Positions 1-59,261 of a DNA stretch of 64,000 bases are shown here, piece after piece; the stretch's first letter is position 1, and the number at the start of each line of letters is the position of its first letter. The notes under the pieces are model-generated. The model worked only from the letters and a program-made list of their open reading frames with translations. It was not told where the DNA came from and made no database searches. The DNA is from Crambe crambe (Eukaryota > Porifera > Demospongiae > Poecilosclerida > Crambeidae). The stretch covers positions 3,368,501 to 3,432,500 of the forward strand of contig OZ004586.1 in assembly GCA_963924555.1 (NCBI GenBank), written 5' to 3'. A program made the position numbers and the translations under genes.

Positions 1-1472
1 CATTATCATTGACTCCAGAAACTCTGAAGGTGTAGTTTGTGTAAGGAGTGAGTCCGCTAGCTGTGAAGGTCCTATTCACCACCACACCAGGGATCAGAGC
101 CCCTCCCACTTCTTGAAATTCCACTGTGTAGTTAGTGATTAAACCATTGCGTTCGATGCATCTGATTTGTGTCCAGGACACACTGACACTTCTGGAGGAA
201 GTAGAGGAAGTAGTTACATGTGGGGGAGCAGTAGGTGCTGCAGCAAAAAAGAGGGAAAAAAACAAAACATTATTAGCTGTGTTATTTCAGACAATGGTCA
301 TTATACCAGCTGCCTTCGTAGTGAACTCAACAGTTGATGTCAGAGTAGCACTAAGTCCACTTGGTAATATGACAGTAATAGTTACATTATAAATATTGAA
401 TTCCTGTAGGTTAGTAAAGTTCACTGTGGAAATACCATTGGTCATTTTGGACTTGTCATCCTCAACCACTTGACACAACTGCCTTGCATCAGTTACTCGC
501 CTCAGTTCTACTCTGTACTCATCCATTGGGAGACTGAATGGAGGCTGGGTCCAGGATATGGTCACAGATGTGGCAGTCAGTGATAAGAAAGTGATATTTA
601 TTGGCCTGCTGAAATCTGATAGAACACTCATTATAGTTACTGATTGTACATAATAAGTTACATTTCCTCACCTCTTACAGTGCCACTCACAGGTCCTACT
701 ACTATTGGAGTCTCATAAAGTGCAACCAGCCAATAAGTAACTCTACCAGGTGCCTGTCCTACTGCACGAGTAGATGCTGTAGATGCTGCTCTTATGCCAG
801 CACTGGAGCGTGTTGGTCTTTCATTACCATTTGTTATTAGGTATCCCTCACTAGGAGGATTAGGTGGTGGTATCCAGGAGACATTCACTCTATTTATCCC
901 AATCTGTCTAACCATGAAGTTAGTAGGAGCTTGTTCTGTATAATAGTGTACATAATCATCATAGCCAATACACTAGCTATAGCTACTAATTATTTTTGTA
1001 GCTATATTTAACTGCTCCCCACTCCTATTCTTATTAGCTAGCTACATGAACTGTGCATGAAATGGATGGTATGTAATTGGTCTGAGATCTCTCCTGAATC
1101 CTTATGTATAAGATGTATTTCTGCTAGCTGGAGGATTGAGTGTGTCCAGGAGACTCTCACTCTATTTATCATGAACTGTCTCAACCATTAGGTCAGTAGG
1201 AGCTTGTTCTGCATAGTGTAAATTACTAATTTCTGGTAGCTAGCTGCTCTAGTACTCCATGAGCTATGAAACTGATGGTATGTATGTAGAAACAATTGGC
1301 CTGATATGTCTGTGCAAACAAAATCTCCTGAATCATCATGCATGACTCATTTTTTAAGAGTATGTGCAGTTTTAGTTAACTGACTAGCTGAGTCTATACA
1401 CTCACCTTGACTCTGTACAGATGAGAGAGTGGATACAAGTCCAAGAGTTAGAAGTAGTACACCATTCAACAT
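1..1472 (-). CDS. FN3 receptor, N-terminal part, runs off left edge
   Basis: N-terminal half of a secreted or membrane FN3 receptor; the rest lies left of the window, so its cytoplasmic type is unknown. Exons read on the minus strand: signal peptide 1406-1472 (starts [12 protein letters not shown], then a GTGAG donor), FN3a 672-935, FN3b 307-615, FN3c from 237 to beyond base 1. All junctions are phase 1. FN3b holds the [10 protein letters not shown] strand and FN3c the NYTVEF and NRTF strands, each typical of fibronectin type III folds and each with N-glycosylation sequons. The start codon is chosen because it opens a clear 22-residue signal peptide, as in every paralogue here. The next gene in the cluster ends 400 bp upstream of this start, in the same orientation. 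Confidence 0.8.
1125..1215 (-). pseudogene. Relic of an extra FN3a exon
   Basis: Inside the first intron of the left-edge gene lies a short degraded match to the start of the FN3a exon: the reverse strand has the acceptor, the GCTCCTACTGACC start and the GAGAGTCTCCTGGACAC strand, but the rest is gone and the frame is broken. It suggests that FN3a was once duplicated here and lost. Confidence 0.55.
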
Positions 1473-1870
1473 GATTAGCTAGCTATCAACTAATTTGTCT
1501 ATTGAATGGTGGAAATAAAAATCATTTCCTGTTATTATAGCATATGGTTCATACAGTAGCTATTAATAAGATAGCTAATCGTACATGTGTGGGCACAACT
1601 GCATACTTCAGGGGAAACATACTATGTGCTCAATTTATCAAGAATGATAGTTACTGTTATGACCACTTAGCTAGTTATACTTGGTCTCAAACAGTTTTTT
1701 ACTATAATAATTATTATAGCTAGCAAACAGAAAAGAAACTCAATAACCACAGGATGTATCAAATTAAGACTTGTATACTTGTTGCATGAGCTTACAAAAA
1801 CAAACACTTGCCAAAATTGAAAAATCCATTATAGCTAAGAAAGTACAGACATTAGCTCTGTAGCTCCTTT
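1473..1870. other. Intergenic spacer between two receptor genes
   Basis: AT-rich spacer between the signal-peptide start of one receptor and the stop codon of the next. The part near 1500-1570 recurs upstream of other receptor starts (48360-48430, 50520-50590, 54840-54930), so it is shared 5' flank that probably contains the promoter; I see no clear TATA box. No gene seen. Confidence 0.5.
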
Positions 1871-4789
1871 TCAAATGTTATCGTATACTTTATCTGCTAT
1901 TTGTGGCATTTGTGTTGTGGTTACATGTCCATATGCTGCACAAACATCCATTTCCATTCCATCAGCTGGACCTCTGCAGTCTATTGATCTATAATTATTT
2001 AATGGGTACTTAGTGGCAGGTACAGATTATTTGTTCAAAAATATAGCCACATGGCCATCAATTCATGATTGTGGAAATATCTCATTTCAAGGTTAGCTAA
2101 GTTAGCTACTTGGGATGTGAAATGTTATAACTGCTTGACATTGCATGAATTAAAGTCTCACTCTTTTTTGTTTCCTTCATGGCGATGGTTGCATACTGAG
2201 TAAATAATGAAGTTAATACCAGTGGAGAGTAAGACAGTCAAGAGAAAGGTGAGAATGAATGTAACACCAACAGCAATGGATAGGTCCCTCCTACTGCACA
2301 TGTATGTAATACCTGTAAAGATCATGACAGCAGCCATTTTGTTCAGGTGACTGTTATAGAGTTAGCTACCAGGTTTCACTGTCTTGTTATTTTCCCCTCA
2401 GATAAAGCATTAGCTACAAGGTACTAAAGAGCTAGCTTGTAATATGAGGCTCTATTGCATGATAACTGTATGCTTACATGTCATTGTAGTTGTGCCATTA
2501 GACACTTGAGTAGATGTTGTACTTGTTGTAGTTGCAATTGACATAGTAGTAGGAAGTATCACTGATCTTACTGCTGACCTTTCCCCCATAATAACTTCTC
2601 CATTAATTTCAGCTGTAGCAGCTACCTGGAACTGGTAATCTGTGATAACTGATTCAGTCAAATTTCTAATAACAACTGAGTTCACAGAGCTGGGAACAAT
2701 GATGGATTCATTGACCTCTGCCTCATAGTCCTCTGTCACATTAAGAAAGTAGTAAACTGTGTAGTTTATAATCGTAGAGTCGTTGATTATCTCCCAGGAA
2801 ACTCTGACTGAGGAATCAGACACAGACTTCACCCATGCATTAATCACCTTGGCTACGGAAAGAAAATCGAAGAATAATAAAATTTAATTATAGTGATCAG
2901 GGTTTCATCTAGGAATTTCACCTTGGGGGGGAAGCTCACCGATCAGAGGGTGTGGGAGGGGATGTGCCCCCTCCCACACGAAGCCAAAAATGTTTACTAA
3001 TCTGAAATTGGTCCTTAATTACTCCCTTTGGTGACTACATGTAACAACCTTTGGTCACCAAAGGGAGTAGCCTTGGGGGGGAAGTTGGTTAGTTTGGGGG
3101 GGGGGGGGGGGGGAGATTGAGGGATTGGGGGGGAAGCTTCCCCCCTGCACCCCCCAGATGAAACCCTGGTGATGATTCTAGATTTCACCTGGTACTGCAA
3201 AGGTAGTCTGATGCTGCAAATTAGCAGGTTCTCCTTGACCTATTCTTGTATAAGCAGTTACTGTAATATCAGAGACTCTTGTTTGTGGAGTTAATGATGG
3301 GATAGTGAATGTAGTGCTCAAGTCTGAGGTGTTGACTCTGACAGTATTGTCACCATTGACTGTGTAAGTGACTTCATAACTGACAATGACTCCATTAGGT
3401 TCTTGCGGTGGACTCCAAATGAGTACAATGGAAGTGAACTTAGGAGTACCAGCGAGGTTAGACACAGGACCAGGAGCTACACATAAAGAAAACTAAGAGG
3501 TTATTGTTACAGTTATGGCTATCATTACTTTCTTCTTCTGTCAGAATACTGGTTACATCAGAAAAGGGTCCAGTGCCATTGTCATTTACTGCAGCAACTC
3601 TGAAGGTGTAGTTTGTGTAAGGAGTGAGTCCGCTAGCTGTGAAGGTCCTATTCACCACCACACCAGGGACCAGAGCCCCTCCCACTTCTTGGAATTCCAC
3701 TGTGTAGTTAGTGATTGGACCATTACGTTCAATGCATCTGATTTGTGTCCAGGACACACTAACACTTCTGGAGGAGGTAGAGGAAGTAGTTAAGAGTGGG
3801 GAAGCAGTAGGTGCTGCAGCAGAAAAACCATTATTAGCTGTGTTATTTCAGACAATGGTCATTATACCAGCTGCCTTTGTAGTGAACTCAACAGTTGGTG
3901 TCAGAGTAGCATTGAGTCCACTTGGTAATATGACAGTAATGGTTACATTGTAAATACTGAATACTTGTAGGTTAGTAAACTCCACTGTGGAAATTCCAGC
4001 CATCATTTTGGACTTATCATCCTCAACCACTTGACACAACTGCATTGCACCAGTTACTCGTCTCAGTTCTACTCTATACTCATCCATTGGGAGACTGAAT
4101 GGAGGCTGAATCCAGGATATGGTCACAGATGTGGCAGTCAGTGATGAGAAAGTGATATTTATTGGCCTGCTGAAATCTGATAGAACACTCATTACGTAGT
4201 TACATGATTGTACATAATAAGTTACATTCCCTCACCTCTTACAGTGCCACTCACAGGTCCTACTACTATTGGAGTCCCATAAAGTGCAACCAGCCAATAA
4301 GTAACTCTACCAGGTCTCTGTCCTACTGCACGAGTAGGTGCTGTAGATGCTGCTTTTATGCCAGCACTGGAGCGTGTTGGTCTTTCATTACCATTTGTTA
4401 TTAGGTATCCCTCACTAGGAGGATTAGGTGGTGGTATCCAGGAGATGTTCACTCTATTTATCCCAATCTGTCTAACCATGAGGTTAGTAGGAGCTTGTTC
4501 TGTATAATAGTGTACATAATCATCATAGCCAATACACTAGCTATAGCTACTAATTATTTTTGTAGCTATATTTAACTGCTCCCCACTCCTATTCTTATTA
4601 GCTAGCTACATGAACTGTGCATGAAATGGATGGTATGCAATTGGTCTGAGATCTCTGTACAAACATGAATCAGTTGTAGTTCAGCTAGCTGGCTAGTAAA
4701 GTCTGTAGACGGGCTTACTCACCTTGACACTGTACATATAAGACAGAAGACACAAGTCCAAGAGATAAAAGTAGTACACTATTTAACAT
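1871..4789 (-). CDS. FN3 receptor with short tyrosine-motif tail (type 2)
   Basis: Single-pass receptor, predicted 613 aa, reading frame unbroken across eight exons: signal peptide 4723-4789, FN3a 4236-4499, FN3b 3868-4176, FN3c 3529-3813, FN3d 3189-3476, FN3e 2478-2852, transmembrane exon 2162-2312, tail 1871-1973. FN3e is followed by a Thr/Ser-rich stalk. The transmembrane segment (SIAVGVTFILTFLLTVLL) is followed by a His/Lys-rich stop-transfer stretch. The GA|GTGAGA donor joins to a tail exon of about 33 residues that contains AAYGHV and ends KVYDNI-stop. Tyr-x-Asn-x is the known preference of Grb2-type SH2 domains; that this tail is phosphorylated is inference. Without splicing into the tail, the frame would stop two bases into the intron. 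Intact paralogue at 51825-54771. A 271 bp transposon sits in the FN3d-FN3e intron. Confidence 0.82.
2898..3168. mobile_element. Non-autonomous TIR element, G/C-tract rich, 5 bp TSD
   Basis: Ends are inverted (CAGGGTTTCATCT and AGATGAAACCCTG) and the interior carries long G and C runs plus a direct and inverted ACTCCCTTTGGTGAC motif. The flanks repeat GTGAT (2893-2897 and 3169-3173). The orthologous intron of the paralogue at 46640-46665 has the uninterrupted sequence TAGTGATGATTCTAG, which shows both the insertion and the 5 bp target duplication. No coding capacity. Confidence 0.8.
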
Positions 4790-7057: not shown

Positions 7058-10000
7058 ATGGCGAAGTCAAGGAGAGAGCTAGCCAGAAATCTACTGGATA
7101 TCAGTGTGTCTGTCAAGGAGGCTGCCACTGGGCTGTTAGAAGAGGGGAGTGAAGCCCTTAGTCTTACTTCTAGTGAGTTGTTCTTAACGGAATGGATATG
7201 GTACCGTAAGTGGACTCTGTTAAAAATATTAGGTCCTTCCAACCTTATGGAAAGAGCGGATAGGCTGAGAAAAAAAGCCTTCAGTAGCAGCAGCAGCAGC
7301 GCTATCAGCAGCAGCAGTGGGAAAAAGACAAGTGTTGGAAGAATGATGGTGTGTCAAGTATTTAGATAAGGGAAAAGCATTTCGTGAAATGAAAAAAGAT
7401 GTAGGGATGACCACCGCTCAAAAAAGCAAGGAAACAAGAAGGATGGAAATGGGATCAATCTTTGTTCTGTATATCCAGCCAACAATCCCTACATACATAC
7501 ATTAGCTACTACACTATAATCTGAAGCTACCCGAGTATATGTAGGGATTGTTGGCTGGATATACAGAACAAAGATTGATCCCATTTCCGTCCATTTTGTT
7601 TCCTTACTTTTTTGAGCAGTGGTCATCCCTACATATTTTTTTTTTCATTTCATGAAATGCTTTTTCCCTTACTTGTTCCTGGTCTTTTTCCCTCTCTTTT
7701 ATGGTATTAGCAATGTATAGAGTTCATTCTTCTATGTGTATGCAGGGACAGATGAAAGAAGAATAGTTCTCCAATAGCATAGCAACGAGTCAAGGTGTTG
7801 TATTATTGTTGAGCTATACTTGGAGGTCGAAGATGCTGAAATAAAGTGTACCGGTAGATGGATTGATGAATCTAAAATCCCTGAGTTGATACAGTAATCA
7901 ATGATCATTATCTAGCTGCTGGCTAGCTAGCTGAGTAATATTATAATTTCGAATAATTGGATATCAAATACATGCGCATGCGTATTATAGAAAAGATGCC
8001 TGAAACTTGGTCTGCATGCACATTGTAGTAGGCTGGATAATCATTCACAGTAGCTTTTGTTAGGTCGAAGTGGGGGGAACTAGAATTTCACTTTTGTATT
8101 AGTCTATAGGTGGCGCGCACGGCCGTCCGAGTCATCCCTACATAGAGAGTACCGCACTTTCTGATAAGCTAGTGAGATGTAATTAATGTCTCATGCCCTA
8201 ATAGTAGCTTTATGCAAATTTCAGATTTCAGTTTGTAAAATGGAAAAAAAATACAAAAGGCAATTATCAAAGGGATGGCATGTTTACTGAGCTGGAGCTG
8301 GAGAGATCACACACGTATAAGGATATTATTGAAATTGCTGCAAACTATTTCCAGTTGGATGGGTCAAATTTCATATTGTATCGACCTAGAGGTGGTGCTT
8401 TGATACTTCACAAAGATTTATCATTAATGGCAAGACTGTTCCTTGGACATTGGGCTCATATATGAGGCTGCGTCACTTGGGACCTGATGCTCTTCAGTTA
8501 GGGATAGGACCACCACAAGAGGTTAGTTTTTAGCATTTAATATCTTGCTTAATGTGTATGGTCTGTATACCTTGTTGAAATTTATAAATATATATTAGTG
8601 CAATATGGGAAGGTTATTAGTGATGGGAATGTATCCTTTGAGAAGGTGGAACGTGATGCACTTCGTTCAAAGTTGGATATCCAATCTGTTACATTTCAGC
8701 CAGAAGATTATTATTATGTTACTTTCATTGCTGAAGGTATGCAATGTTTACTGTAGTGTATTATGATGTAATTATTATTATTTTTAGATTCCATTCCACT
8801 ATATAAAGTTCCATTTGGGACAGACACACTGTCTGTAAATGATTCCTTTTTTGCAAGAGGTTATCAAGAAGGAACAAGATACACTATTTGGTTTATGCAG
8901 ACCTTTCTATAGTATACCAGTCACCACAACAGATAATGTGTAGTGGCAGGGAAGAAGTTGCATTATACTGCGTAGTGAATATTCTGTCCCTTGAAACTGA
9001 CTATAAATGGCATACCCCTACTAATTTCGATTTACCATCAACATCTGTGGTGTATGTGACAAAGCCGGGGGTTTATTTTTGTACGGTACATTATAATGGT
9101 GAAGAAGTGACCTCAAGGCTTTCTGAAATCTCAGTATTACCAAGTAAGCTGTTATGATTATAGTGATATGCCTGGTTAGTGTGTTGAATCACCAGGAAGT
9201 ACATCACCTGCTTCCAAAAGGAGTGTTGTTGATGGTAGTAGTGTAGAGGTTGAAGGCAGTATCGTTGACAGTTACACGGATGTTACTGGAAATCAGCTAC
9301 TTTGTAAGAATAATCAAGAAAGTGTGATATTCAGTAGCTATGTCAGAATTATGTTTACAGCTGGTCTAACATTTCCCTCAAGAGAACTTCTTGATGCTAC
9401 AGACCAGAAAGATGAAAAGAACCTGTTGGGCCGTGGTGGGTATGGATCTGTTTACAGAGGTGTATTGAGGCACACCACAGTTGCCGTGAAATTTCTGAAT
9501 GAGGTCCGTCAGAGCATAGCTGCAGAATATCTCTGTAAGTTTGAATTTGCAGGAGGGTCAGACGTCACTTGGAAGCCGAAGTATGGGAGCTGAAATGCTG
9601 AAAACTGAGCTGGCTGCATTGACGAAGTATGTGTTGTGAGTATGTCTAGTACTTGTTGCTTTAGCTGTATGTATTGTGTACTAGGTTTCGGCATCCCAAC
9701 ATAATACCCATTATGGGTTATTCAGTGTCACAAGACGTCATTGTATATGAATATGCTCCAGGCAGAAGCCTCTATTATCGGCTCCATGAGGTACCCTATG
9801 GTTTTATTTGTTGAGAGTCCACCACTCCCTATTGCACTACTCAGGTTACAGGTAATGTTCAATTGAAATGGAAAAACCGACTTCAGATTCTGAAGGGGAC
9901 ATGCTGTGGACTTCTGTATCTACATTCTGCAGACCATCCCATAGTGCACCAGGATATTAAGTCGTAAGTTTATTATTATAATCATCCACAATAAGGGCTG

Positions 10001-10644: not shown

Positions 10645-12750
10645 TATATTTACCCTCAATTTGCTACACTATAAACACCCCCTTACACACCATCACCTCA
10701 CCTCATGAAAAAATTGAATGATGATATACTTCAATTGATCTCTGTCCAGAATCTACATCATAACATAATAGTAACATCTCTGACGAAAGACCCCCTGATA
10801 ACTTCCCAGCAAAGAACATTTCAATCTAAGTCTCCTATGAACCTCCAAAAGAGGACAACCTCTCAATAAAGGATAATCTAAAAGCACCTTATACACACTA
10901 AAAGCTACCTCTCTACAAAGGACTGACTCAAGGACTGACTCAATTGTTGTAAGGCATAGGAGGAAGAACTGAAGGCATAGAGTGGCCCAATATGCCTTAA
11001 TTAAGATGCCTGGGCTGGGGGAAACCCTGAGAATGATACAATATGTATGTACACACAATACTCACAATTTTTTCCACATCAGTGATGCTCTTCTCCTCAA
11101 CGTCTAGATACGGTGGCAGGAGTGCTTCCTTGGGCAGGAGATCCTGAATCCGAGGGAGAGGCCAGTGAGCAAAATTCTCCTTTGCCAGGAAGAGGGTGTC
11201 ACTTGTTACCACCAAGGTAACTGGAGAGCGCCCTGCATAGATTAAGACAATTACTTCAAATGAGATGAATTTCATGAAAATTAACATAGAAAAATTTTTT
11301 TTGATACTTACCACCAGTGTCACCGCGGCATCTGTAGGCCAATCTGTAGAGAACCAGGTCCTCAGTACTTGTAGAGGTCGCACTTGAGGGGTAACCAACT
11401 GGAGACTTCCTTGCTGATGAATTCTTGTACTGACTCTACATTGTACATAGTAGAGTTGAGAGTATATGATAAAGAGGGATGGTGGTATAGTCCTGTAGTA
11501 TCACTGTGTGCACTATAACGCACCATGAAGAGTGATACCTATACAGTACCAACTAGCTACAATGTAAGCTAGGAAATGAAAAGAAGGGGAGACCCTGGTA
11601 CCCTTCTTTGGGGGGACACTGCCTTAAATTTTGTATAGGTATTTAGCAGTTTAGTGGGTATTAGTTTTAGCTGATCAAAATCATAGCATTCAATTTTATG
11701 GTAAAAAGACTTCAGAATAAATCTACTGATTGGTTGGCTAAATATTTAAGTTATAATTGTGTGTTGTTTTTTTTGAATGTCCATTTGATCATTATACAGT
11801 TAGAAAATAGACCAATCTGATTTGTGTTGGGCCAACAATGATGATTATAGATTGAATGTTTAGTATGCCCATGGTCATGGTACCTTTTTGACTTCATGAA
11901 GAACTCTGTCAGGATAGCGAAGGGCATCTATGTTGAATGGACACACACCAACATTCTGCAGGGATGAACCTGGAGCATCTGCCACACACACTGCATGTAC
12001 ACAAATTCAGCAAAGTACAGTACAAAAATATGATTTCCCAGCTTACTGGATTGGTAAAACTTACATACTGTACTAGTAAAACCTCCATGCAAATAAACAT
12101 GCTACGTATGCTTGACATTCATAACAAAAACTTGAGTTCATGTATCAATACTGCTCATTGCTCTGATTTCAGAAGATGCAACATTATATATGTTTGAAAT
12201 TACACCTTACTTACACAAGAATTGAGAAAAATAGCTTCTCTAATTTCCAAGTGAATGCAAAAAAAGGCTATAGCTACTTACACGAAAGTTGAGTGGAACA
12301 AATCTTGCACTTGTAGTCGTCTCTCATGAGGAACGTGTAGCAAGCCCCAGCACTCTTGAACTCCACTCTGAGGAATTGGTAGGCCACTCCATGGTCTATG
12401 TACACCAGTTTGTGCAGGGAATGGTTGCACACCAATTTCAGCCACTTCTCTGGCCGGGAACTACATGAGAAACGATGTAAACATGTAGTAATGTAATGGG
12501 GGATCTCAATGTTGAGTGAGATGTGCATATGCAAGTATTAAACATGAAATGAAGGAAGATACAAACTATATGACTCTCCCCAGGATTTATTGAAGGCATA
12601 GGGGCAAGACCATCATAAGATAGAGAGGGCCCAGTGATTATGAGTGTCCTGAGATGGCTATAAGCCAGCCACCAGTAATGAATAATAAGGCATAGGGGGA
12701 AGAACTGAAGGCATAGTGGCAAGACATAATAATTATAATGGCATAGGCGT
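10645..12750 (-). pseudogene. Partial duplicate of the PH-like gene at 59.9-63.8 kb
   Basis: Five internal exons match the gene at the right end of the window exon for exon and in exact length: 12282-12460 (179 bp), 11884-11990 (107), 11312-11437 (126), 11066-11232 (167), 10702-10752 (51). All five are still open, and introns align too, including the AAGGCATAGG...GAACTGAAGGCATAG repeats. The large first exon and the final exon are missing, so it cannot encode the same protein. The copy begins 4 bp after the stop codon of the plus-strand kinase gene. It could be transcribed or supply alternative exons, but I treat it as a duplicated fragment. Confidence 0.72.
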
Positions 12751-14612: not shown

Positions 14613-15349
14613 TTAAATGTTTTGAAAATTGGCATAAGTATCAAATGAGTCCAAGAATTTAAGTGTGGCATCAAATAAGGTCTTGTAATTTGCCTGTGCA
14701 TAATGAATAATTGCATCTCCATAAAGATAGTAATACATTGATGACTCACAAGAGTGGGAACAGCCCCTGGTTTCTGGACACGAAGTGCCTTGACCACTTG
14801 GAAGACATCCACCACTCCCTCTGTCTTGCATCGATCAATGATGGTTGTTATGGCACAGAACATTCCACTCCTGGTCACTGTGTCACTATAATATCATACA
14901 ACATTAGTTCATTATAGCTATAGTCAAAACATATTAGCTAGCTTTTGTATAGACCATATTGGAGTTCGTTTGATGTTTGTTTGTTTGAATGCTGTTGTTC
15001 TGAAAGATTACACAAATGAGGACAATTAGCTACTTCAAACCATGTGATATCCCTTACCAATTTCTATTGTGCATCATTTAAAAGTGCATGGTTTGTCAGT
15101 GTCATGTGATTGGCTACCTGCAGTGTATGAATACAGGTTTATTTCCTGTCTTCCTCTGGATTTTAGAGAGCTCCTCCACGACATCCACCACACTCTTGAG
15201 GTTGGAACACACTCCATCTGGTCTCCAGCAAGTGATATGGAACTGAGTCACTTGGTGGGCCTTTTTGGTCTAAATTAAAATATATCAAATAACAATGTCT
15301 CCAACTCTCAGTATTTTAATCTTTTGCTGCCTAAAATTATGAAAAATAT

Positions 15350-15351
<2 letters not shown>

Positions 15352-15426
<75 letters not shown>
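15352..15426. repeat. (CT)n microsatellite
   Basis: About 37 CT units in a D2 intron. The paralogous intron at 35359-35389 has a CCCT/CTCT tract in the same place, so this is a shared unstable site. Confidence 0.95.
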
Positions 15427-15429
<3 letters not shown>

Positions 15430-16856: not shown

Positions 16857-16861
16857 AATGT

Positions 16862-25032: not shown

Positions 25033-25186
25033 GATGATCAATAGCCTTCATTAGTGAGTTACTTATAGGGAAGGCAACACTTTATGTTTTGTTTACCACA
25101 CTTTATAATTGCAGCGAGCGAGCGAAGCGAGTGAGCTGACTCTCAGGTCATGACTCATTGAAATTTTAAATATACATGTATATATA

Positions 25187-32198: not shown

Positions 32199-32200
32199 AT

Positions 32201-43900: not shown

Positions 43901-46900
43901 TATACATCCCTACAAATCTCAAATCTCAAATCTCAACAAATGTTTTTAGCTAAACTATCAATAATAACATGTTATGTTAGCTAAAACACAAACACAATGT
44001 ACTCTATGCTATTTTTACTAAATGAACAACCCTTAAGTAGCTAAGTCTTAGATATACGTAATATTATGATGTAGCTGCAGCGGCCCACAACACAGTATAG
44101 TCAAAATTTTGTCTCTAAAAGAACTCTGAATTGTTTAGTCTCATTTCTATAAAAAAATTTTTTAAAAACTGAAAAGCCTTAGAACCATTATGGTAACATT
44201 ACAGATGGCATTGGAATATCTACAAAGAAATCTATAGTGTGTTTGTGTGCCATTGTATAGTGGTGTTTGTTATTCATCATAGCTAGAAGAAACATGTAAC
44301 TCTTAGAAAAATCCCTAAGCACTACAGAAGCTTGTTGCCATTGTTATCAAAATTGCAGTTTCCAGGACTCAAACAGTCCATAAATCCATAGAGCACTTCA
44401 ACTAGAAGGCACTGGCCCCCAAAACATCATAGAATTTGTGCATGCATGCTTACCTGCAGTGTACTAGCATGGGACCTCTTCTGCTCTTGTGCTGTGAGAG
44501 GATCCTGCGATGAAAAGACAACATCGAAGTGGCATAATCAGGCACTCCATGGTCAGGCCAGGACGTGAAGTGAAACTGCTTCAATTTCCAAGGACGACTT
44601 GCTGAACTGCCTTCTAACTGTTATATAGATTTACTCAAGATGATGTAGCTACATGGCTACAGAATGAATCAATATGTGTAGCTTTTCTCACATTAACTTG
44701 CAGCGTCCTGATGACATAGTCAGCAAACATCTGGTATTCTACCAGGGTGACCTTGAAGGGACCATAATTCTTGCTCCCACTGTCTGGCCAATACTGTTCA
44801 CATTTGAGTTTGTTACCTTCCTTAATGTTGGTTACCATGACAATAGTTGGGGGTCTCTCCTGCCACATCAGTCGCCAAAAGTCGACAAGCATGCAAGTTT
44901 TAGGACCTTCACAATGTGAGCTTTTATGATTTCACTCTTAAAACTTAATACGTATGGGTGATACCTTGTGTTGCAATGAACTTTGATGGCTGTGAGTATC
45001 CCTAATGAAGTACATTATTTATTTATTTATTTTATTATTTTATTTATTTATTTATTTTACGTACTTCGACAAAACATGCATTGATGAATTCTCCCTGACA
45101 ATCATCAAAGCCTGGAATAGCATTGAGCACTATGCGATTATGATCGTCTGGAAGTGACAAATGATATGTACATATCATGGCTACGTTTTGTATTACTGTA
45201 CAACTTACACACAGTGATGTTTGCAAATCGATTCAACTTTTTGTTTTCCTTGAGCAATCCAATTGTTTTAGGATGCTCATCACCACTGTCAAGACTCTAT
45301 ATTTATTAATTCAAGTTCAATAATAGCATAGTATGTATGTAGATACCTCATACTGATTCCTGAATCCTGTGTCAGAGTGGGAATGGTTCACTGCCACATA
45401 CTCTCCAAAGTCTGTCACTGGAATAGGCATTAATTTGACCGTCTCCTTTTGAACAGGATCAACTTCCTCATTATCTGGCCTCATGGTAAGTTTTACTTCT
45501 CTTTCAGCTGTACCACTTGGGTTCCTGGCCTGTAACTTGTAGACTCCACTGTGTTTGAGCTCAGCAGACGCTATGGAGAGAACACCACTTGGTTGAATCT
45601 CCACTGCATAGTCAGACTTCAGCTCAATCCCTTCATGGTACCAAGTGAGGGTAGGCTCAGGATTCCCACTCACTGCAGTCTTGAATGTTACACTTTCACC
45701 TTCACTTAGATGCTTATCTGAAGGAAAGTCCACAATCACAGGACCTAGAATTATACGAACATATTATTTCCAAGACTGGAATGAAGTAGATGTATAATAG
45801 GCAGTGGCTTGATGTTGTTAGGGATAGTTAAGCATCATACTTCAACAATCTCAAGCTTACTACATTAATATCTCTACATTTGTTTACATTATGTTAAAAA
45901 AATATGTTTTAGATTTTATACTGTTCTTTCAGCAAACCTGTATATTCCTCCATCATGATCAGTGAATCAGGGATGAAGGAATTGCTTTTTTTATCACAAT
46001 TTCTTTTTTTTTCTCTATCGTATAAGTACAGCCAATAAATATTGTATACACATGACAATAATTATAATCATACCTCTTCTTCAGCCAGAATCCAAGCAAA
46101 ACTCCAAACACGACAAAAAGAAGAGCAATTATAATTCCTCCAGTTATTGGTCCAATGTGCCTCAGTGATCTGGGATTAGTAGCCATAGGACTAGCTGAAC
46201 ACAGTACATATACATTATAAGTATGAGACAGAGATTCCTATATTAATTATGTATCTTAATCATTTGGCTTACATGTCATCATAGTGCTAGCCATGGACAT
46301 CTGAGTAGATGTTGTAAATATAGGAGGTATAACTGCATCTGACCTTTCCCCCATTATAACTTCTCCATTAATTTCAGCTGTAGCAGCTACCTGAAACTGG
46401 TAATCTGTGATGTTCGATACAGTTAACTCTCCAATAACAACTGAGTTCATAGAGCTGGGAACAATGATGGATTCATTGACTTCTGTCTCATAATTCTCTG
46501 TCACATTAATAAAGTAGTAAACTGTGTAGTTTGTAATCATAGAGTTGTTAATAATCTCCCAGGAAACTCTGACTGAGGAATCAGACACAGACTCCACCTG
46601 TACATTTGTCACCTTGGCTATGGAAAGAAAATTGAAGAATAATATAGTGATGATTCTAGATTTGGTACACTGACTCACCTGGTGCTGCAAAGGTAGTCTG
46701 ATTCTGCAAATTAGCAGGTTCTCCTTGACCTATTCTTGTGTAAGCAGTGACTGTAATATCAGAGACTCTTGTTTGTGGAGTCAATGATGGGATAGTGAAT
46801 GTAGTGCTCAAGTCTGAGGTGTTGACTCTGACAGTATTGTTGCCATTGACTGTGTAAGTGACTTCATAACTGATGATGACTCCATTATGTTCTTGAGGAG

Positions 46901-48292
46901 GACTCCAAGTGAGTACAATGGAAGTGAACTTAGGAGTACCGGATAGGTTAGACACAGGACCAGGAGCTACACATAAAAGACACTAAGATTGTTGTTACAG
47001 TTATGGCTATCATTACTTTCTTCTTCTGTCAGAATACTAGTTACATCAAAGGGTCCAGTGCCATTGTCATTGACTCCAGCAACTCTGAAGGTGTAGTTTG
47101 TGTAAGGAGTGAGTCCACTAGCTGTGAAGGTCCTATTCATCACCACACCAGGGATCAGAGCCCCTCCCACTTCTTGGAATTCTACTGTGTAGTTAGTGAT
47201 TGGACCATTGCGTTCAATGCATCTGATTTGTGTCCAGGACACACTAACACTTCTGGAGGTAGTAGAGGAAGTGTTTATGTGTGGGGAAGCAGTAGGTGCT
47301 GGAGCAGAACAAAACATTAGCTTGATTATTAGCTATGTGATTTCAGTGTATGGTCATACCAGCTGCCTTTGTAGTGAACTCTACAGTTGGTGTCAGAGTA
47401 ACATTGAATCCACTTGGTAATGTAACAGTAATTTTAGTAGTGTAAATACTGAATTCCTGTAGGTTAGTAAACTCCACTGTGGAAATACCATTGGTCATCT
47501 TGGATCTGTGATCCTCAATTACTTGACACAACTGCCTTGCACCAGTTACTTGTCTCAGTTCTACTCTATATTCATCCATTGGGAGACTGAATGGAGGCTG
47601 GGTCCAGGATATGGTGACAGATGTGGCAGTTAGTGATGAGAAAGTGATATTTATCGGCCTGCTTAAATCTGATAGAACACTCATTAGTTACTGATTGTAC
47701 ATAATAAGTTACATTTCCTCACCTCTTACAGTGCCACTCACAGGTCCTACTACTATTGGAGTCTCGTAAAGTGCAACCAGCCAATAAGTAATTGTACGAG
47801 GTACCTGTCCTACATCACGACTAGATGTTCCAAATAGTACTGTTGAGCCAACACTGAAGTCTGTAGGTCTTGTGTCATCTGTTCTAATTAGGTATCCCCT
47901 ACTAGGAGGATTGGGTGGTGGTGTCCAGGAGACTCTCACTCTATCTATCCCAATCTGTCTAACCATGAGGTTAGTAGGAGCGTCTTCTGCATAGAATAAA
48001 TAGTCAAACACTACTAAAGTAAATAGCTGCTCTAGCATCCTATGAGCTATGAAATTGATGGTATAATATTATATGTAGAAACAATTGGCCTGAGATTTCT
48101 GTGCAAACAAAAATCTCCTGAATCATCATGCATGACTTACTCCAGGAAGTAGCTAGCTATGTACACTGCATTTTCTAGTTAGCTGGCTATCTGCTGATGT
48201 TAGAGTCTATACTTTATGCACTCACCTTGACTCTGTACATATAAGACAGAGGACACCAGTCCAATAGTTAGAAGTAGTACACCATTCAACAT
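40987..48292 (-). CDS. Receptor tyrosine phosphatase, FN3 x5, TM, cytoplasmic Ig, D1-D2
   Basis: The most complete member: 23 exons, 3816 bp, predicted 1271 aa. Signal peptide 48226-48292, FN3a 47723-47986, FN3b 47360-47668, FN3c 47017-47298, FN3d 46679-46966, FN3e 46273-46617, TM 46074-46194, juxtamembrane 45938-46014, Ig 45347-45744. D1: 45209-45296, 45065-45147, 44965-45001, 44692-44906, 44454-44617, 43622-43757, 43354-43503, 43206-43299. D2: 43083-43147, 42697-42831, 41846-41974, 41493-41644, 41131-41266, 40987-41067. The Ig exon encodes an I-set domain ([23 protein letters not shown]; the first cysteine of the usual pair is not seen) and lies after the membrane exon, so it is predicted cytoplasmic. 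D1 has WPDHGVP and [11 protein letters not shown]2 has [11 protein letters not shown] foldback element interrupts a D2 intron. Confidence 0.88.
41351..41380. repeat. (TTTG)n microsatellite
   Basis: About seven TTTG units in a D2 intron, where the paralogous intron has only TTTGTTTATTTG-like sequence. Confidence 0.9.
42355..42655. mobile_element. Foldback element in a D2 intron
   Basis: Arms of about 115 bp: ACAAGTGAAAGGAAAAAAAATTATGC...CTATAGCAGTTTCTGTGAACAAA...TGCTGCCTTC and its mirror. Loop about 60 bp. Half of the same element recurs at 52610-52745 in the intron of another receptor. Confidence 0.85.
45015..45058. repeat. (TTTA)n microsatellite
   Basis: Imperfect ATTT/TTTA tract in a D1 intron. 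Confidence 0.85.
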
Positions 48293-48485
48293 GACTATTT
48301 CTTGTTATATAATGTTGGTAGAGATAGTTAAGTGGTTAGCTATAGACTATAGATCAATATGCATGGTGGAAATAAAAATCATTTCCTGTTATTATAGCTA
48401 TACAATAATGTATATCAATGCATTATGGTTCTTACATACAGTAGCAAGTCGTATGTGTGTGAGTGCACATTGATTGATGGCTCAC

Positions 48486-50431
48486 ACGTCATTATAGTGG
48501 TGCCATTAGACACTTCTGTGGTTGCAATAGTAGGAGGTATCACTGCATCTGATCTTTCCCCCATAATAATTTCTCCATTATTTTCAGCTGAAGCAGTTAC
48601 TTGAACTGGTAATCTGTGATGTTTGATACAGTTAAATCTCCAATCACAACTGAGTCCACAGAGCTGGGAACAATGATGGATTCATTGACCTCTGCCTCAT
48701 GCACGTTAATAAAGTAGTAAATAGTGTAGTTAGCAATCATGGAGTTGTTAATACTCTCCCAGGAAACTCTGACTGAGGAATCAGATGCAAGCTCCACTTG
48801 TACATTCATCACCTTGGCTAATGAAAGGAATTTCATTCAATAATAGTGATAATACTGACATGTTGACTTACCTGGTGCTTCTAAGGTAGTCTGATCAGGT
48901 AAATTAGCATGTACTCCTCTACCGATTCTTGTGTAAGCAGTGACTGTAATAGCAGAGACTCTTGTTTGTGGAGTCAATGATGGGATAGTGAATGTAATGC
49001 TCAAGTCTGAGGTGTTGACTCTGACAGTATTGTTGCCATTGACTGTGTAAGTGACTTCATAACTGATGATGACTCCATTAGGTTCTTGAGGTGGACTCCA
49101 AGTGAATACAATAGAAGTAAACTTAGGAGTACCAGTGAGGTTAGACACAGGACCAGGAGCTATACAGGAATCATCAGTTATAAAATCATTATGGATGTAG
49201 TTACATACTTTCTTCTTCTGTCAGAATACTGGTTGTGTTAGAAAAGGGTCCAGTGTCATTGTCATTGACTCCAGCACAACTCTGAAGGTGTAGTTTGTGT
49301 AAGGAGTGAGTCCACTAGCTGTGAAGGTCCTATTTACCACCACACCAGGGATCAGAGCCCCACCCATTTCTCGGAATTCCACTGTGTAGTTAGTGATTGG
49401 ACCATTGCGTTTGATACGTACATCTGATTTGTGACCAGGACACACTGACACTTTTGGAGGTGGTAGAGAGTGTTTATACGTGGGGAAGCAGTAGGTGCTG
49501 CAGCAGAGCAAAACATTAGGAATCAGGATAATTATAACTTCAGTGTATGGTCATACCATCTGCCTTTGTAGTGAACTCTACAGTTGGTGTCAGAGTAGCA
49601 TTGAATCCACTTGGTAATGTAACATTAATGGTTACATTGTAAATACTGAGGTTAGTAAAGTTCACTGTAGGAGTACCATTGGTTATTTTGAATTTATCAT
49701 TCTCAACCACTTGACACAGCTGTTTTGCACCAGTTACTCGTCTCAGTTCTACTCTATACACATCCATTGGGAGACTGAATGGAGGCTGGGTCCAGGATAT
49801 GATCACAGAAGTGGCAGTTAGTGATGAGAAAGTGATATTTATTGGCCTTCTGAAATCTGATAGAACACTCATTAGTTACTGATTGTACATAGCTAATAAG
49901 TTACATTTCCTCACCTCTTACAGTGATACTCACAGGTCCTACTACTATTGGAGTCCCATAAAGTGCAACCAGCCAATAGTTAACTGTACCAGGTACCTGT
50001 CCTACACCTTGACTAGATGCTGTAGATAGTGCTTTTATGCCAGCACTGGAGCGTGTTGGTCTTTCATTACCATTTGTTATTAGGTATCCCTTACTAGGAG
50101 GATTGGGTGGTGGTGTCCAGGAGACTCTCACTCTATCTATCCCAATCTGTCTAACCATGAGGTTAGTAAGAGCTTGTCCTGCATAGTGTAAATAGTCAAA
50201 CACTATCTAGCTGCTCTGAACTCCTAGTATTTCATGAGCTATAAAATTGATGGTATATATATTATGTGTAGAAACAATTGGCCTGAGATCTTGAGGAAGT
50301 ATGTACACGTACTGCATTTTAATTAGTTAGCTGGCTAGCTGCTGATGTTAGAGTCTACACTCACCTTGACTCTGTACATATAAGATAGAGGATACAAGTC
50401 CAAGAGTTAGAAGTTCTACACCAATCAACAT
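48486..50431 (-). pseudogene. FN3 receptor unit, frameshifted, no membrane or tail exons
   Basis: Signal peptide 50365-50431, FN3a 49915-50178, FN3b 49557-49856, FN3c about 49213-49505, FN3d 48872-49159, FN3e 48486-48817. FN3c is out of frame at three places: a small deletion at INTL/STTS, a 4 bp gain at the RCIERNG codons (GTACGTATCAAA), and a 2 bp gain in FRVAG. FN3e is 332 bp against 333 in the paralogue at 52794-53126, from a lost A near 48602. After FN3e there is no transmembrane or cytoplasmic exon; within 200 bp the next gene's start is reached. The junction near 48460 fuses 5' flank of one unit to FN3e of another, as expected from unequal crossing over. Confidence 0.82.
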
Positions 50432-51824: not shown

Positions 51825-54771
51825 TCAAATGTTATCGTATACTTTATCTGATATTTGCGGCATTTGTGTTGTGGTTACATGTCCATATGCTGCACAAACA
51901 TCCATTTCCATTCCATCAGCTGGACCTCTGTAAATAAACAAGAAATACAACAGTCTATTAGCTACACTGAGACTTCTTTCATGGTGAAGAGTAAAGTATT
52001 CTCTATCTGCTAGCTCTAAATCTTGAGGGAAAGATTTAGTGGGTACTTAGTGGCAGGTGCTATTTGTTCAAAAATATAGCCACATGGCCATCAATTCATG
52101 ATTGTGGAAAGATCTCATTTATCTAGAATCTTAGTTCAAGGTTAGCTATGCTGGGAGGCCTGAAAAAAATTAGAACTGCTTGATATTGAATAATTTAAAA
52201 TCTCACTCTTTTTTGTTTCCTTCATGGCGATGGTTGCATATAGAGTAGTTAATACCAGTGGAGAGTAAAACAGTCAAGAGAAAGGTGAGTATGAATGTAA
52301 CAGCAACAGCAATGGATAAGTCCCTCGTGCACGTAACACCTGTAAAGACCATGAGAGAAAATGATCAGATGTAACATCCTGTCTTGGAACCTGAATTTAT
52401 GGTCACATGTATTGGGTCAAGATGAAAGTCCCAAAGTCAGAATATATTACGTATAATAATTAGAAGTCACAGTGTAAAAGGGCCACCTCTGTAGCTATAG
52501 CTAGCAGCCAAATTGTTCAGGTGACTGTTATACAGTAACCAAGTTCCACCATCTTGTTATTATAATTAATTTACACACTTTTACACTGACATTAACAGCT
52601 TGCATGGTCTTGGTGGGAGGGAGTGATGTAGTGATTATCACATAAATTTGATACTTTGTTCACAGAAACTGCTATAGGTAAAAGTACAGACTAACACTAT
52701 GCACATGGCCTTTTTTAAATTTTTTTCCCTTCATTTGTTCGTTTATTTTTTACATAAAGCATTATGTAACTATATGCATGATTGATGGCTCACACGTCAT
52801 TGTAGTGGTGTCATTGGACACATCTGTGGTTGCAATAGTGGAAGGTATCACTCCATCTGATCTTTCCCCCATAATAATTTCTCCATTATTTTCAGCTGTA
52901 GCAGCTACTTGAAACTGGTAATCTGTGATGTTTGATACAGTTAAATCTCCAATCACAACTGAGTTCACAGAGCTGGGAACAATGATGGATTCATTGACCT
53001 CTGCCTCATGCACGTTAATAAAGTAGTAAATAGTGTAGTTATTAATCATGGAGTTGTTAATACTGTCCCAGGAAACTCTGACTGAGGAATCAGACACTAA
53101 CTCCACTCGTACATTCATCACCTTGGCTAATGAAAAAAATTTCATTCAATAATAGTGATGATACTGACATGTTGACTCACCTGGTGTTGCAAAGGTAGTC
53201 TGATTAGTTAAATTAGCATGTACTCCTCTACCAATTCTTGTGTAAGCAGTGACTGTAATAGCAGAGACTCTTGTTTGTGGAGTCAATGATGGGATAGTGA
53301 ATGTAGTGCTCAAGTCTGAGGTGTTGACTCTGATAGCATTGCTGTCATTGACTGCGTAGGTGACTTCATAACTGATGATGACTCCATTAGGTTCTTGAGG
53401 TGGACTCCAAGTGAGTACAATGGAAGTGAACTTAGGAGTACCAGCGAGGTTAGAGACAGGACCAGGAGCTACAAATAAAGAATTATTATAAAGTAATTTT
53501 ACAGGATGGCCACTATAGTATGATTACTTTCTTCTTCTGTCAGAATACTGGTCACATTAGTAAAGGGTCCAGTGCCATTGTTATTGACTGCAGCAACTCT
53601 GAAGATGTAGTTTGTGTGAGGAGTGAGTCCACTAATTGTGAAGGTCTCATTCACTACCACACCAGGGATCAGAGCCCCTCCCACTTCTTGGAATTCCACT
53701 GTGTAGTTAGTGATTGGACCATTGCGTTCAATACATCTGATTTGTGACCAGGACACACTGACACTTTTGGAAATGGTAGAGAGAGCGTTTATGTGTGGGG
53801 AAGCAGTAGGTGCTGCAGCAGAGCAAAACATTAGGAATCAGGATAATTATAACTTCAGTGTATGGTCATACCAGCTGCCTTTGTAGTGAACTCTACAGTT
53901 GGTGCCAGAGTAGCAGTGAATCCACTTGGTAATGTAACATTAATGGTTACACTGTAAATACTGAATACTTGTAGGTTAGTAAAGTTCACTGTAGGAGTAC
54001 CATTGGTTATTTTGAATTTATCATTTTCAGCCACTTGACACAGCTGTCTTGCACCGGTTACTCGTCTCAGTTCTACTCTATACACATCCATTGGGAGACT
54101 GAATGGAGGCTGGGTCCAGGATATGGTCACAGAAGTGGCAGTGAGTGATGAGAAAGTGATATTTATTGGCCTGCTGAAATCTGATAGAGCACTCATTAGT
54201 TACTGACTGTACATAATAATTTACATTTCCTCACCTCTTACAGTGCCACTCACAGGTCCTACTACTATTGGAGTCCCATAAAGTGCAACTAGCCAAAAAA
54301 TAAGTGTTGTACCAGGTACCTGTCCTACACCTTGACTAGATGCTGTAGATAGTGCTTTTATGCCAGCACTGGAGCGTGTTGGTCTTTCATTACCAAATGT
54401 TATTAGGTATCCCTCACTAGGAGGATTGGGTGGTGGTGTCCAGGAGACTCTCACTCTATCTATCCCAATCTGTCTAACCATGAGGTTAGTAGGAGCTTGT
54501 CCTGCATAGTGTAAATAGACAAACACTATCTAGTTCCTCTGAACTCCTATATTCCATGAGCTATAAAATTGCAGTGTAGAAACAATTTGCTGAGATCTCT
54601 GTGCAAACAAAAATATCATGCATGACTTATTCCAGGAAGTATGTACACTGCATTTTAACTATAGTTAGCTGACTAGCTGCTGATGTTATAGAGTCTGCAC
54701 TCACCTTGACTCTGTACATATAAGATAGAGGACACAAGTCCAAGTGTTAGAAGTTGTACACCAATCAACAT
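51825..54771 (-). CDS. FN3 receptor with short tyrosine-motif tail (type 2), second copy
   Basis: Predicted 594 aa, eight exons, frame unbroken (1785 bp): signal peptide 54705-54771, FN3a 54235-54501, FN3b 53872-54180, FN3c 53528-53812, FN3d 53181-53468, FN3e 52794-53126, transmembrane 52207-52339, tail 51825-51927. The tail matches that of the 1871-4789 gene almost base for base, including AAYGHV and KVYDNI at the C-terminus, and the same GA|GTGAGA donor is used. The stalk after FN3e is shorter. The transmembrane exon lacks six residues after the membrane helix compared with the first copy. Conservation of the tail while introns diverge argues that it is functional. Confidence 0.85.
52610..52750. 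mobile_element. Half of the 42.4 kb foldback element
   Basis: GATGTAGTGATTATCACATAAATTTGATACTTTGTTCACAGAAACTGC...GTACAGACTAACA...TTTTTTTCCCTTCATTTGTTC matches one arm of the 42355-42655 foldback. The other arm is absent. Confidence 0.65.
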
Positions 54772-56995: not shown

Positions 56996-57241
56996 TATAG
57001 CTATAGTCACTAGCTACACTGACTATTGGCGAATTAGGTATTCAGTTTCATACCTATGTTATTTGGATCAGGGCCAATTACTAATGTACTAATGACAAAT
57101 GACTTACTTAGTAGCTGCAGTTTCATACGTACTTAACATCTTCAGATGGTCCATTCCTAACAATTAGGTATTCAAAAAAAAAGTAGCTAGCTATAGATTT
57201 ATTTAAACCAAAAACAACAACAACAAAAAAACAACTAACTT

Positions 57242-59261
57242 TTTACTTCCTTTATGATGGTGATTGTACAAAGAGTGAATGATGAAGTGGATACATATGG
57301 AGAGTAAGACAGTCAAGAGAAAGGTACATAAGTGTGAATGTAACAGCAACAGCAATGAATAAGTGAATATGAGTGCTACACCTGCAATTATAAATTGACT
57401 AGTGTGCTTCTACTAACTAAAGATAACAATTCTAATCATAGCTATACCTAATCTATTCCTGTTCACTCATCCCCATTGATTGGGGTGAATCCCTAATTTC
57501 ACTTGTAGTTTATAATTGCACTCCTACATCTGCACATGTGCAGACTAGCCATAGCAACATGTTTCTGAAGATGGGTAATTTATTTCAATGTTTTTTCAAA
57601 GTGAATTGTAGGTGCTAGGCTTATCTAAGTGGTTATTGGCCACCCACTAGGCTTATGTAAGCATTTTGTGGCAATCATTACAGGTTAATTCACATTAACA
57701 GCTTCCTACATGCAGCTGCCTGGCTGGTAGCTACATGATTAATAGGCAATCACATGCTTTTTTGTGCAATTTAGGTATAATTGCATTCAGAACTGTCTAA
57801 ATTGCACTCAGCTTTGCCTCTTGCAATTACCTAGCCAGTTCCTCATGCAATTAGCTACACCCAAATTACACTCAAAAGCATGTGATTACGTAGAGCTAAT
57901 AACAAAAAAAGATATCATTTCTTATTATAGCAATCAAAGCTTACTCTTCATTGTTGTAGAACCAGTGGACATGATCATTTGAAGTGTTGATAGAGCTGAT
58001 TTTTGCCCAATGAAAATATCTCCATTGATTTCAGCTGTAGCAACCACCTGAAACTAGTATATTGTAATAACTGATCCAGTTAAATTCCTAATGACTATTG
58101 AGTTCATTGAACTGGGAATAGTGACATTATTCTCTTCTTCACAATTTCCTATCAGAAGATAGTATAGTTTATAATCATTGGGTTGTTGATACTCTCCCAG
58201 GAAACTCTGACTGAGGAAGTAGACACTGGCTCCACCATAAGTGTCATTACTACAGCTGCAGGTGGCATCAATGAATATACGTATGTAGCTATGTAACTTC
58301 AGTGTATGGTCATACCAGCTGCTTTTGTAGTGAACTCTACAGTTGGTGTCAGAGTAGCATCGAATCCACTTGGTAATGTAACAGTAATGGTTATATTATA
58401 AATAATGAACACTTGTAGGTTAGTAAAGTTCACTGTAGAAGTACCATTGGTTATTTCAAACTTATCATCCTCAACCACTTGACACAACTGCCTTTCATCA
58501 GTTACTCGTCTCAGTCCTACTCTATACTCATCCATTGGGAGACTGAATGGAGGCTGGGTCCAGGATATGGTCACAGATGTGGCAGTCAGTGATGAGAAAG
58601 TGATATTTATTGGCATGCTGAAATCTGATAGAACACTCATTAGTTACTAATTGTGCATAATAAGTTACATTTCCTCACCTCTTACAGTGCCATTCACAGG
58701 TCCTACTACTATTGGAGTCCCATAAAGTGCAACCAACCAATAAGTAACTGTACGAGTTGACTGTCCTACTTGATGACTAGATGCCGTAGACGTTGCTGCT
58801 ACCCCAGCACTGAAGTCTGTAGGTCTTGTGTCACCTGTTGTTATTAGGTATCCCCTACTAGGAGGATTGGGTGGTGGTGTCCAGGAGACTCTCACTCTAT
58901 TTATCCCAATCTCTCTAACCATGAGTTTAGTAGGAGCTTGTTCTGCATGTAAGTTAAGACATCAATTCAGTGTACTATGTTATAATAGCTAGCAACTATA
59001 ATTATTTTGGTGTATATAAACATATATAGTTAATACCAAGTTCCATAAGCCATGGTATAGTACGTACAATGCATGCATGTGTACATGTATGTACGTGCCC
59101 AGCTAAATAAAGTAAGTTATAGCTACACTTAAATTCAGTCATCTTTCTACCTATATACAAGAGATGCCATTTCATTGCAATAACATGCACTCACCTTGAC
59201 TACACACAGGCACAAGAGTAGACACAAGTCCAAGAGTAAGGAGTAACACGCTATTCAACAT
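57242..59261 (-). pseudogene. Short FN3 receptor unit with decayed 3' exons
   Basis: Signal peptide 59195-59261, FN3a 58679-58942 and FN3b 58316-58624 are intact. FN3c and FN3d are missing. What follows is a decayed FN3e (about 57950-58247) with in-frame stops after NYTIF and before FQVVATAE, then a decayed transmembrane exon (57242-57384) with small insertions that shift its frame. No tail exon was found. A two-domain secreted product from the first three exons is conceivable but unsupported. Confidence 0.72.
57605..57740. repeat. Diverged fragment of array unit P
   Basis: GTAGGTGCTAGGCTTATCTAAGTGG, GGCTTATGTAAGCATTTTGTGG and CATGCAGCTGCCTGGC match the middle of the ~570 bp unit from 27-34 kb, with many substitutions. 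It shows that the unit is older and more dispersed than the array. Confidence 0.6.

Follow-up and report, generated by a model that had tools for sequence, protein, structure and literature searches.

The genome of the sponge Crambe crambe carries a cluster of genes in which near-identical fibronectin type III (FN3) ectodomains are joined to different cytoplasmic ends, among them a tandem protein tyrosine phosphatase (PTP). We consider here a window of 64,000 nucleotides from that cluster (assembly GCA_963924555.1, contig OZ004586.1, called C9 below, positions 3368501-3432500), and we think it probable, with a confidence somewhat beyond even, that its genes are paired receptors with recurrently exchanged binding modules, the negative arm of which would be a receptor phosphatase. 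An earlier sequence-only reading of the window had proposed a layout of paired immune receptors; the window proves to be a slice of a 1.2-Mb receptor array on C9, larger than that reading had it. Across the genome searched (143,139,886 bases in 119 contigs), the FN3b exon gave 150 listed matches, 109 on C9 (one place being split in two) and 35 on C13; these counts are lower bounds, with 150 of 246 candidates scored, and they put the exon at a minimum of about 108 places on C9 among the matches listed. Counted as one row per gene, C9 holds 42 PTP-type Ig exons (from 75 rows, less 27 on other contigs and 6 second pieces or degenerate copies) and 61 short-tail exons, namely 54 of type A (from 63 rows, less 3 on C13, 4 cross-hits to B, 1 opposite-strand duplicate and 1 weak row) and 7 of type B (from 40 rows, the others being cross-hits or pieces). 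Genes were modelled at 49 places, in a 264-kb stretch and five further 10-kb loci with the L031 units left out, and 22 of these are open, i.e. free of stops and frameshifts and longer than 560 aa: 10 PTP genes, 1 PTP gene cut by the locus end, 6 A-tailed genes and 5 B-tailed genes. Among the six is the gene at 2912111, which is best aligned by the B reference, yet has an A tail exon. All receptor units of the window lie on the minus strand. There are eight units with signal peptide (SP) and FN3 exons, in agreement with the at least eight first counted, plus one fragment, and the full-length FN3a-d exon matches show 83-95% DNA identity to the unit at 40987-48292. In the open-access literature we found no paper on a Crambe crambe FN3/PTP receptor array; an Amphimedon R3 receptor with a single PTP domain, and not this array, is treated in the available part of PMC5336234.

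The intact PTP-type receptor of the window (40987-48292, minus strand) has 23 exons, all with GT-AG borders, that encode 1271 aa in the order SP, FN3a-e, transmembrane segment (TM), juxtamembrane segment (JM), cytoplasmic I-set Ig domain, PTP D1 and PTP D2. For the small JM exon, either of two 5′ borders would keep the reading frame, and a purpose-written spliced aligner returned identical exons, a result that validates the aligner and not the model, the query being the same protein. Pfam recognizes five fn3 domains, one I-set domain (aa 586-671) and two Y_phosphatase domains, and a chance origin of these matches is of no concern because their E-values are 8e-44 for fn3, 1.9e-16 for I-set and 6e-136 for Y_phosphatase. 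The predicted TM, at about residues 538-556 (exon 46074-46194, after which the basic stop-transfer sequence KKREKKR follows), precedes the I-set domain, and no further hydrophobic stretch appears after it in 10 of 10 open PTP genes at the threshold used; therefore, the Ig domain, which shares its exon (45347-45744) with the linker to D1, is placed in the cytoplasm, between the membrane and D1. With a TM exon that ends in phase 2 and an Ig exon that starts in phase 1, the two need the basic JM exon as a link. This predicted cytosolic Ig domain, on which the sequence-only reading was silent, is a structural oddity for a receptor PTP (RPTP) in its own right. The D1 exons (43354-45296) keep the canonical catalytic motifs, including MVQTPEQY, and the D2 exons (40987-43299) have degenerate ones; among open PTP genes of more than 1200 aa, the D1 P-loop is present in 10 of 10 and the string SWPD.GVP in 9 of 10. 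The tandem D1-D2 is shared with RPTPs alpha/epsilon and LAR (6uzt, 1lar), and its best solved relative is RPTP alpha (6uzt, 1.3e-140), in an alignment that reaches the C-terminal YANF. Judged by its single TM, its cytoplasmic tandem PTP and the catalytic motifs of D1, the PTP form is a receptor tyrosine phosphatase, and it may act as the inhibitory member of the system through its phosphatase action.

In the gene models, the FN3 exons join each kind of tail in frame. Two intact type A short-tail receptors had been proposed in the window, and both stand with the ends first given: 51825-54771 (minus strand; 594 aa; SP, FN3a-e with five fn3 stretches, TM and tail) and 1871-4789 (minus strand; 613 aa; TM exon 2162-2312, tail exon 1871-1973). 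The TM exon of the former (52207-52339) has, by eye, no charged residue in its hydrophobic core, and none was seen by eye in the short-tail TM core of the kind expected for pairing with an adaptor; its last exon (51825-51927) encodes the tail GPADGMEMDVCAAYGHVTTTQMPQISDKVYDNI, followed by the stop codon, with two conserved tyrosines. A second class, type B, is found in the flanking contig; its exons for the last FN3, the TM and the linker are particular to it, and its tail ends in EYAVIS or EYDIIS. Over 14 usable tail exons (9 A, 5 B), both tyrosines and the final Y-x-x-I are kept in 14 of 14 and AYG in 13 of 14. A canonical immunoreceptor tyrosine-based activation or inhibitory motif (ITAM or ITIM), in the general definition of these motifs, is rejected: tail A reads YGHV-x12-YDNI, only ITAM-like, and mostly ends K-V-Y-D-N/S-I, and two of five B tails fit S-x-Y-x-x-I. 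Because they match neither canonical motif, the short tails may be either activating or inhibitory. A Y-x-N sequence would suit a Grb2-type SH2 domain; the YDSI, YDII, YNDI and YAVI tails are without it. Kinase-tailed members were absent from the C9 array among 146 kinase matches listed (121 of 1944 candidates scored). SH2 domains are abundant in the genome, with 106 exon matches. Dense runs of SH2 exons at C5:1.417-1.656 Mb and C12:1.64-1.84 Mb have the look of tandemly amplified adaptor genes, the products of which are possible partners of the tyrosine tails. At C18:6539084-6540942, two SH2 matches stand beside the genome's best PTP match in a layout that resembles an SHP-type phosphatase gene.

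How do such alike ectodomains come to sit on unlike cytoplasmic ends? In the clearest case, two genes of the array outside the window, P_3123300 (PTP) and A_3128552 (tail A), are 97-100% identical, and mostly 100%, in 150-nt steps along a block of about 3.9 kb that begins about 1.4 kb upstream of the start codon and takes in FN3c; identity stays at 97-99% in most of FN3d, falls to 90% where FN3d borders FN3e and to 85-87% within FN3e, and is 35-47% once the TM exon is reached. As background, the median identity for any pair of units is 88-91% in FN3a-d and 87% in FN3e. Because the two genes are nearly identical from the upstream region to FN3c and unrelated from the TM on, they are, to judge from this alignment, chimeras that carry one 5′ module on two 3′ modules. 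A similar pair lies at the left end of the window, where positions 1-1472 (minus strand) hold the 5′ part of a further PTP-type gene that runs past the edge (start C9:3369972; 1280 aa by the aligner) and that the sequence-only reading did not mention. This gene is open throughout when read into the flanking contig, its FN3a-d and those of the A-tailed gene at 1871-4789 are mutual nearest relatives, and the shared block extends from the intron before FN3a into FN3e at 89-99% per step, except for one step of 77% over a large gap.

The same picture emerges from a maximum-likelihood tree of FN3a-d DNA for the 32 genes with all four exons open (17 PTP, 10 A, 5 B; L031 units left out). Tail labels change 12 times on this tree, compared with a mean of 13.1 in shuffles (61 of 200 shuffles being as low), and its starred branches force at least 7 changes between PTP and non-PTP. 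Five smallest starred groups mix tails: A_3373291 with P_3369977 (the left-end pair of the window) and B_3172807 with P_3194956, both sides of each being open; P_3123300 with A_3128552 and A_3133848, open as far as the locus reaches in P_3123300; and B_3199775 with P_3183020 and A_2912109 with P_2916257, in each of which the PTP gene is frameshifted. Taken together, tree and alignments show tail type and ectodomain ancestry to be unlinked at the level of DNA, with modules passing between tail types, and exchange of ectodomains between tail types evidently occurs.

Both forms also appear in a more diverged array on C13, where one example of each was read. In the C13 PTP gene, of which the part between the end of FN3a and D2 was read, FN3b-e, TM (by eye), Ig and PTP follow one another as they do on C9, and the C13 short-tail gene keeps both tyrosines in a tail that reads LEMTACMAYGQV...GVYDNV. 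Because one C13 gene of each form has the matching layout, it is suggested that both forms predate the split of the two arrays. Upstream of FN3a in the C13 short-tail gene (C13:4393501-4398500), there are Ig-like open reading frames (ORFs), by eye, and additional N-terminal domains may be present there.

Selection differs between the domains. Nei-Gojobori ratios of nonsynonymous to synonymous change (dN/dS), pooled over open exon copies, are 1.40 for FN3a, 0.60 for FN3b, 0.66 for FN3c, 0.58 for FN3d and 0.53 for FN3e, with 0.27 for Ig, 0.17 for D1 and 0.14 for D2. For FN3a, the membrane-distal domain (exon 47723-47986 in the PTP gene), the pooled value in the 22 open genes is 1.46 with a codon-bootstrap interval of 1.00-2.20, and a codon model with one omega gives 1.15, which is not different from 1 (twice the log-likelihood difference, 2dlnL, 0.94); a whole-domain omega above 1 is thus rejected. 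Because the pooled interval touches 1 and the one-omega model is not significant, we take as evidence for FN3a the site-class test alone (M2a against M1a), which was purpose-written, with M0 likelihoods equal to those of IQ-TREE for four exons and p values uncorrected for four tests. In this test, FN3a gives 2dlnL 26.2 (p 2.1e-6), with a class of omega 3.16 that makes up 24% of its codons; FN3b, although exchanged in the same blocks as FN3a, is negative (0.19, p 0.91), and FN3c and FN3d give 13.0 (p 0.0015) and 9.8 (p 0.0074). A less well optimised run returned 25.5 for FN3a and 0.32 for FN3b. Eight FN3a codons have a posterior above 0.9, namely 29, 42, 48, 50, 56, 57, 61 and 84 in the exon peptide numbering of 40987-48292; six lie between residues 42 and 61, and the variable stretch was placed by eye between the C and F strands. 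FN3a thus shows the strongest signal of diversifying selection among the domains tested, with the caveat that within-exon recombination can raise the false positives of site tests. Strong purifying selection across the whole ectodomain, the finding that the sequence-only reading had named as fatal to its proposal, is not what these data show: FN3a has diversifying sites. With tail type unlinked to ectodomain ancestry, an ectodomain block recently shared, FN3a diversifying and the PTP constrained, the paired-receptor layout put forward for the window gains in credibility.

What might such an array do? We picture a common binding module (SP and FN3a-d, in the clearest case together with the upstream region) joined to one of three cytoplasmic ends, i.e. 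the tandem phosphatase on its cytosolic I-set Ig domain, short tail A or short tail B. Unequal crossing-over or gene conversion would repeatedly shift the binding module from one tail type to another, with the result, visible at the sequence level, that one recognition face exists in a phosphatase version and in a docking version. Upon ligand contact, kinases, perhaps of the Src type, would phosphorylate the Y-x-x-I tails and SH2 proteins would be recruited; phosphatase receptors co-engaged on the same ligand would dephosphorylate the tails or their partners, and the balance would set the response. The likeliest ligands would be variable ones, such as microbial or allogeneic surface molecules. 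Opposing signals, a ligand of this kind and an immune or self/non-self role are what we infer for the array.

A number of observations weigh against paired receptors with exchanged modules. The basis is the DNA of one haplotype; only 22 of the 49 modelled places are open and longer than 560 aa; the tails, as noted, are of no canonical type; and the one-omega estimate and the recombination caveat both apply to FN3a. The backbone of the FN3a-d tree is weak, with 11 of 29 inner branches starred and 15 open, and several of its 32 rows come from genes with damage in other exons. Genes of the opposite tail are not in excess as nearest ectodomain relatives: the nearest one lies across the PTP/short divide in 13 of 32 genes, against a shuffled mean of 16.4. 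Gene order lends little support to a conserved short-then-PTP cassette: with two of the 54 A tails, which lie on the strand opposite to their arm, excluded from the order tests, the count of short-to-PTP neighbours is 9 of 17 for the minus arm, against an expectation of 9.0, and 14 of 21 for the plus arm, against 11.0 (p 0.06), and only one of four order tests falls at p 0.04, with 28 plus-arm tail alternations against 21.9 expected. The stretch at 2.33-2.46 Mb holds 21 short-tail exons and no PTP. Finally, the short tails have dN/dS values of 0.49-0.54, given without an interval and just mildly below 1.

Several of these observations would equally suit the ordinary birth and death of an adhesion-type receptor phosphatase family, in which tail exchange would be a neutral by-product of unequal crossing-over and the short forms would serve as decoys or in adhesion, with no matched signal and no immune role. 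The failure of 27 of 49 modelled places in the openness test (a few merely from the locus end), the mostly random-like order of tail types, the lack of preference for opposite-tail nearest relatives and the mild constraint on the short tails are all as expected under such a scheme. It does not, however, account for a class of FN3a codons with omega of about 3 that is absent in FN3b, nor for the retention of both tyrosines in the short tails, including that of the diverged C13 paralogue, which decoys would not need; we regard neutral birth and death as unlikely. Site-wise positive selection in an outer domain is more usual for receptors that face foreign or allelic partners, and this selection also argues against a code for homotypic adhesion or individuality like that of Dscam or the clustered protocadherins, in which the number of copies would be there for the identity of cells inside a single sponge and not for defence, with PTP and short forms that tune adhesion. 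Such a code would fit a large clustered repertoire with a variable outer domain and a D1-D2 whose nearest solved structures are RPTP alpha and LAR, and we hold it to be quite improbable. An assembly artefact, in which uncollapsed haplotypes would create the array and its near-identical ectodomains, could be suspected from stretches that are 98-100% alike and from the 18 haplotypic duplications removed by hand according to the available text of PMC12166358, but it is judged very improbable from self-comparison of the array loci, where no self-match at 93% or more exceeds 8.8 kb (this one at 95.2%), the likeness in the clearest case stops inside the gene, and the same text gives an assembly quality value of 58.1 and 459-fold HiFi coverage.

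If these genes are indeed paired receptors with exchanged modules, they have precedents in part. Gene conversion keeps the binding exons of inhibitory and activating partners alike in Siglec-11/16 (PMC5701461) and CEACAM1/CEACAM3 (PMC2832619), as far as the accessible portions of these papers go. Like the array, these pairs have alike binding domains on different cytoplasmic ends and a likeness kept by recombination, and in the CEA family the binding domain is diversified and copy number varies as well (PMC2832619); unlike the array, they use Ig domains with ITIM versus ITAM-type tails, whereas the negative arm of the FN3 receptors would be a covalent tandem phosphatase. The likeness to SIRP or KIR receptors first drawn for the window holds for alike ectodomains on different cytoplasmic ends and fails for the ectodomain itself, which is of the Ig superfamily in SIRP/KIR and consists, before the TM, only of FN3 in the three array proteins scanned with Pfam. 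Among invertebrates, Botryllus fester/FcoR and Hydractinia Alr are, like the array, clustered variable receptors according to the accessible text of a 2025 review (PMC12065747), where Botryllus FcoR tails are described that can carry the bare core Y-x-x-I/L/V. The FcoR ectodomains are, however, Ig/sushi, and Botryllus allorecognition is genetically proven, whereas for the array it is a candidate role. CD45-like receptor phosphatases are expressed in the same Botryllus tissue, and the available part of the review mentions none that shares the receptors' ectodomain (PMC12065747). FN3-only R3 RPTPs share the FN3 ectodomain and have, in the portion of PMC5336234 at hand, one PTP domain where the array PTP form has two. 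What sets the array apart from known RPTPs is the many copies that share ectodomains with non-PTP genes. A further difference concerns the Ig domains, which are extracellular in LAR-type (R2A) receptors, whereas in the array PTP form the I-set domain follows the TM and would lie in the cytosol before D1. An RPTP of the sponge Geodia cydonium is reported to combine FN3 with an 'Ig-related' domain; if that Ig is cytosolic, the feature is already known.

The wider proposal, that sponge self/non-self recognition is built on paired receptors of the FN3 type in which a receptor phosphatase, and not an ITIM tail, forms the inhibitory arm, independently of the Ig and lectin families and with exchangeable promoter-plus-binding modules in about a hundred genes, is one that we put forward tentatively and hold to be possible but doubtful. 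According to the same review (PMC12065747), sponges, cnidarians and ascidians do not share conserved candidate proteins for allorecognition. With its clustering, its diversifying tip sites and its phosphatase and docking forms, the array is a concrete, testable candidate for sponge recognition. If the proposal were true, paired-receptor logic would have arisen with other domains, and a receptor phosphatase could be the negative partner.

The remaining units of the window, all on the minus strand, are in various states of decay. Of the two tandem-phosphatase genes first called intact, 40987-48292 is so, as detailed above, and 34621-40556 is not: this PTP-type gene without FN3e has open FN3 and D1/D2 exons, but its JM-Ig intron and about the first 100 of the 398 nt of its Ig exon are deleted and the remainder is out of frame, so that it would be joinable by nothing but an unusual cryptic splice. 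The same kind of deletion, in which the JM-Ig intron and the start of the Ig exon are lost, is found in the PTP-type pseudogene at 14600-23442, which also has a TGA in its Ig exon and a frameshift in D1d, and a similar pattern occurs in two units outside the window, at 3330475 and 3298958. The unit at 48478-50431 is a tail-less pseudogene (FN3a-e) with frameshifts in FN3c and FN3e, that at 57996-59261 is truncated to SP, FN3a, FN3b and a degenerate FN3e, and 24266-25034 is a fragment of SP and broken FN3a copies.

Other features of the window and the genome are worth recording. ORFs at 8843-9593 (plus strand) give a weak Ig_2 match (E 0.036) and a weak match to the Pkinase N-lobe (E 0.0079; ORF 9180-9593, which reads LLGRGGYGSVYRGVLRHTTVAVKFL), both under the curated cut-offs; these ORFs may belong to a receptor kinase gene that lies within the array on its other strand. 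Between two receptor units, at 27168-33930 (plus strand), a repeated ORF of about 100-140 aa, listed in six copies, together with another that recurs at 31483 and 32148, forms an interspersed repeat, and a tandem-repeat scan of this gap (score 300) lists only one short 78-bp array. A palindromic element resembling a miniature inverted-repeat transposable element lies in an intron of the PTP gene at 42343-42649, with a related copy at 52583-52755 in an intron of the short-tail gene. Below the curated cut-offs, there are matches on the minus strand to the nischarin C-terminal PH domain (11000-11500) and to a PLEKHM2 PH-like domain (62808-63863, within 62805-63863), and the ORF at 60816-61226 (minus strand) has a stretch in common with the ORF at 11000-11500. 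Elsewhere in the genome, further large arrays of PTP exons lie at C12:0.07-0.38 and 2.5-3.2 Mb.

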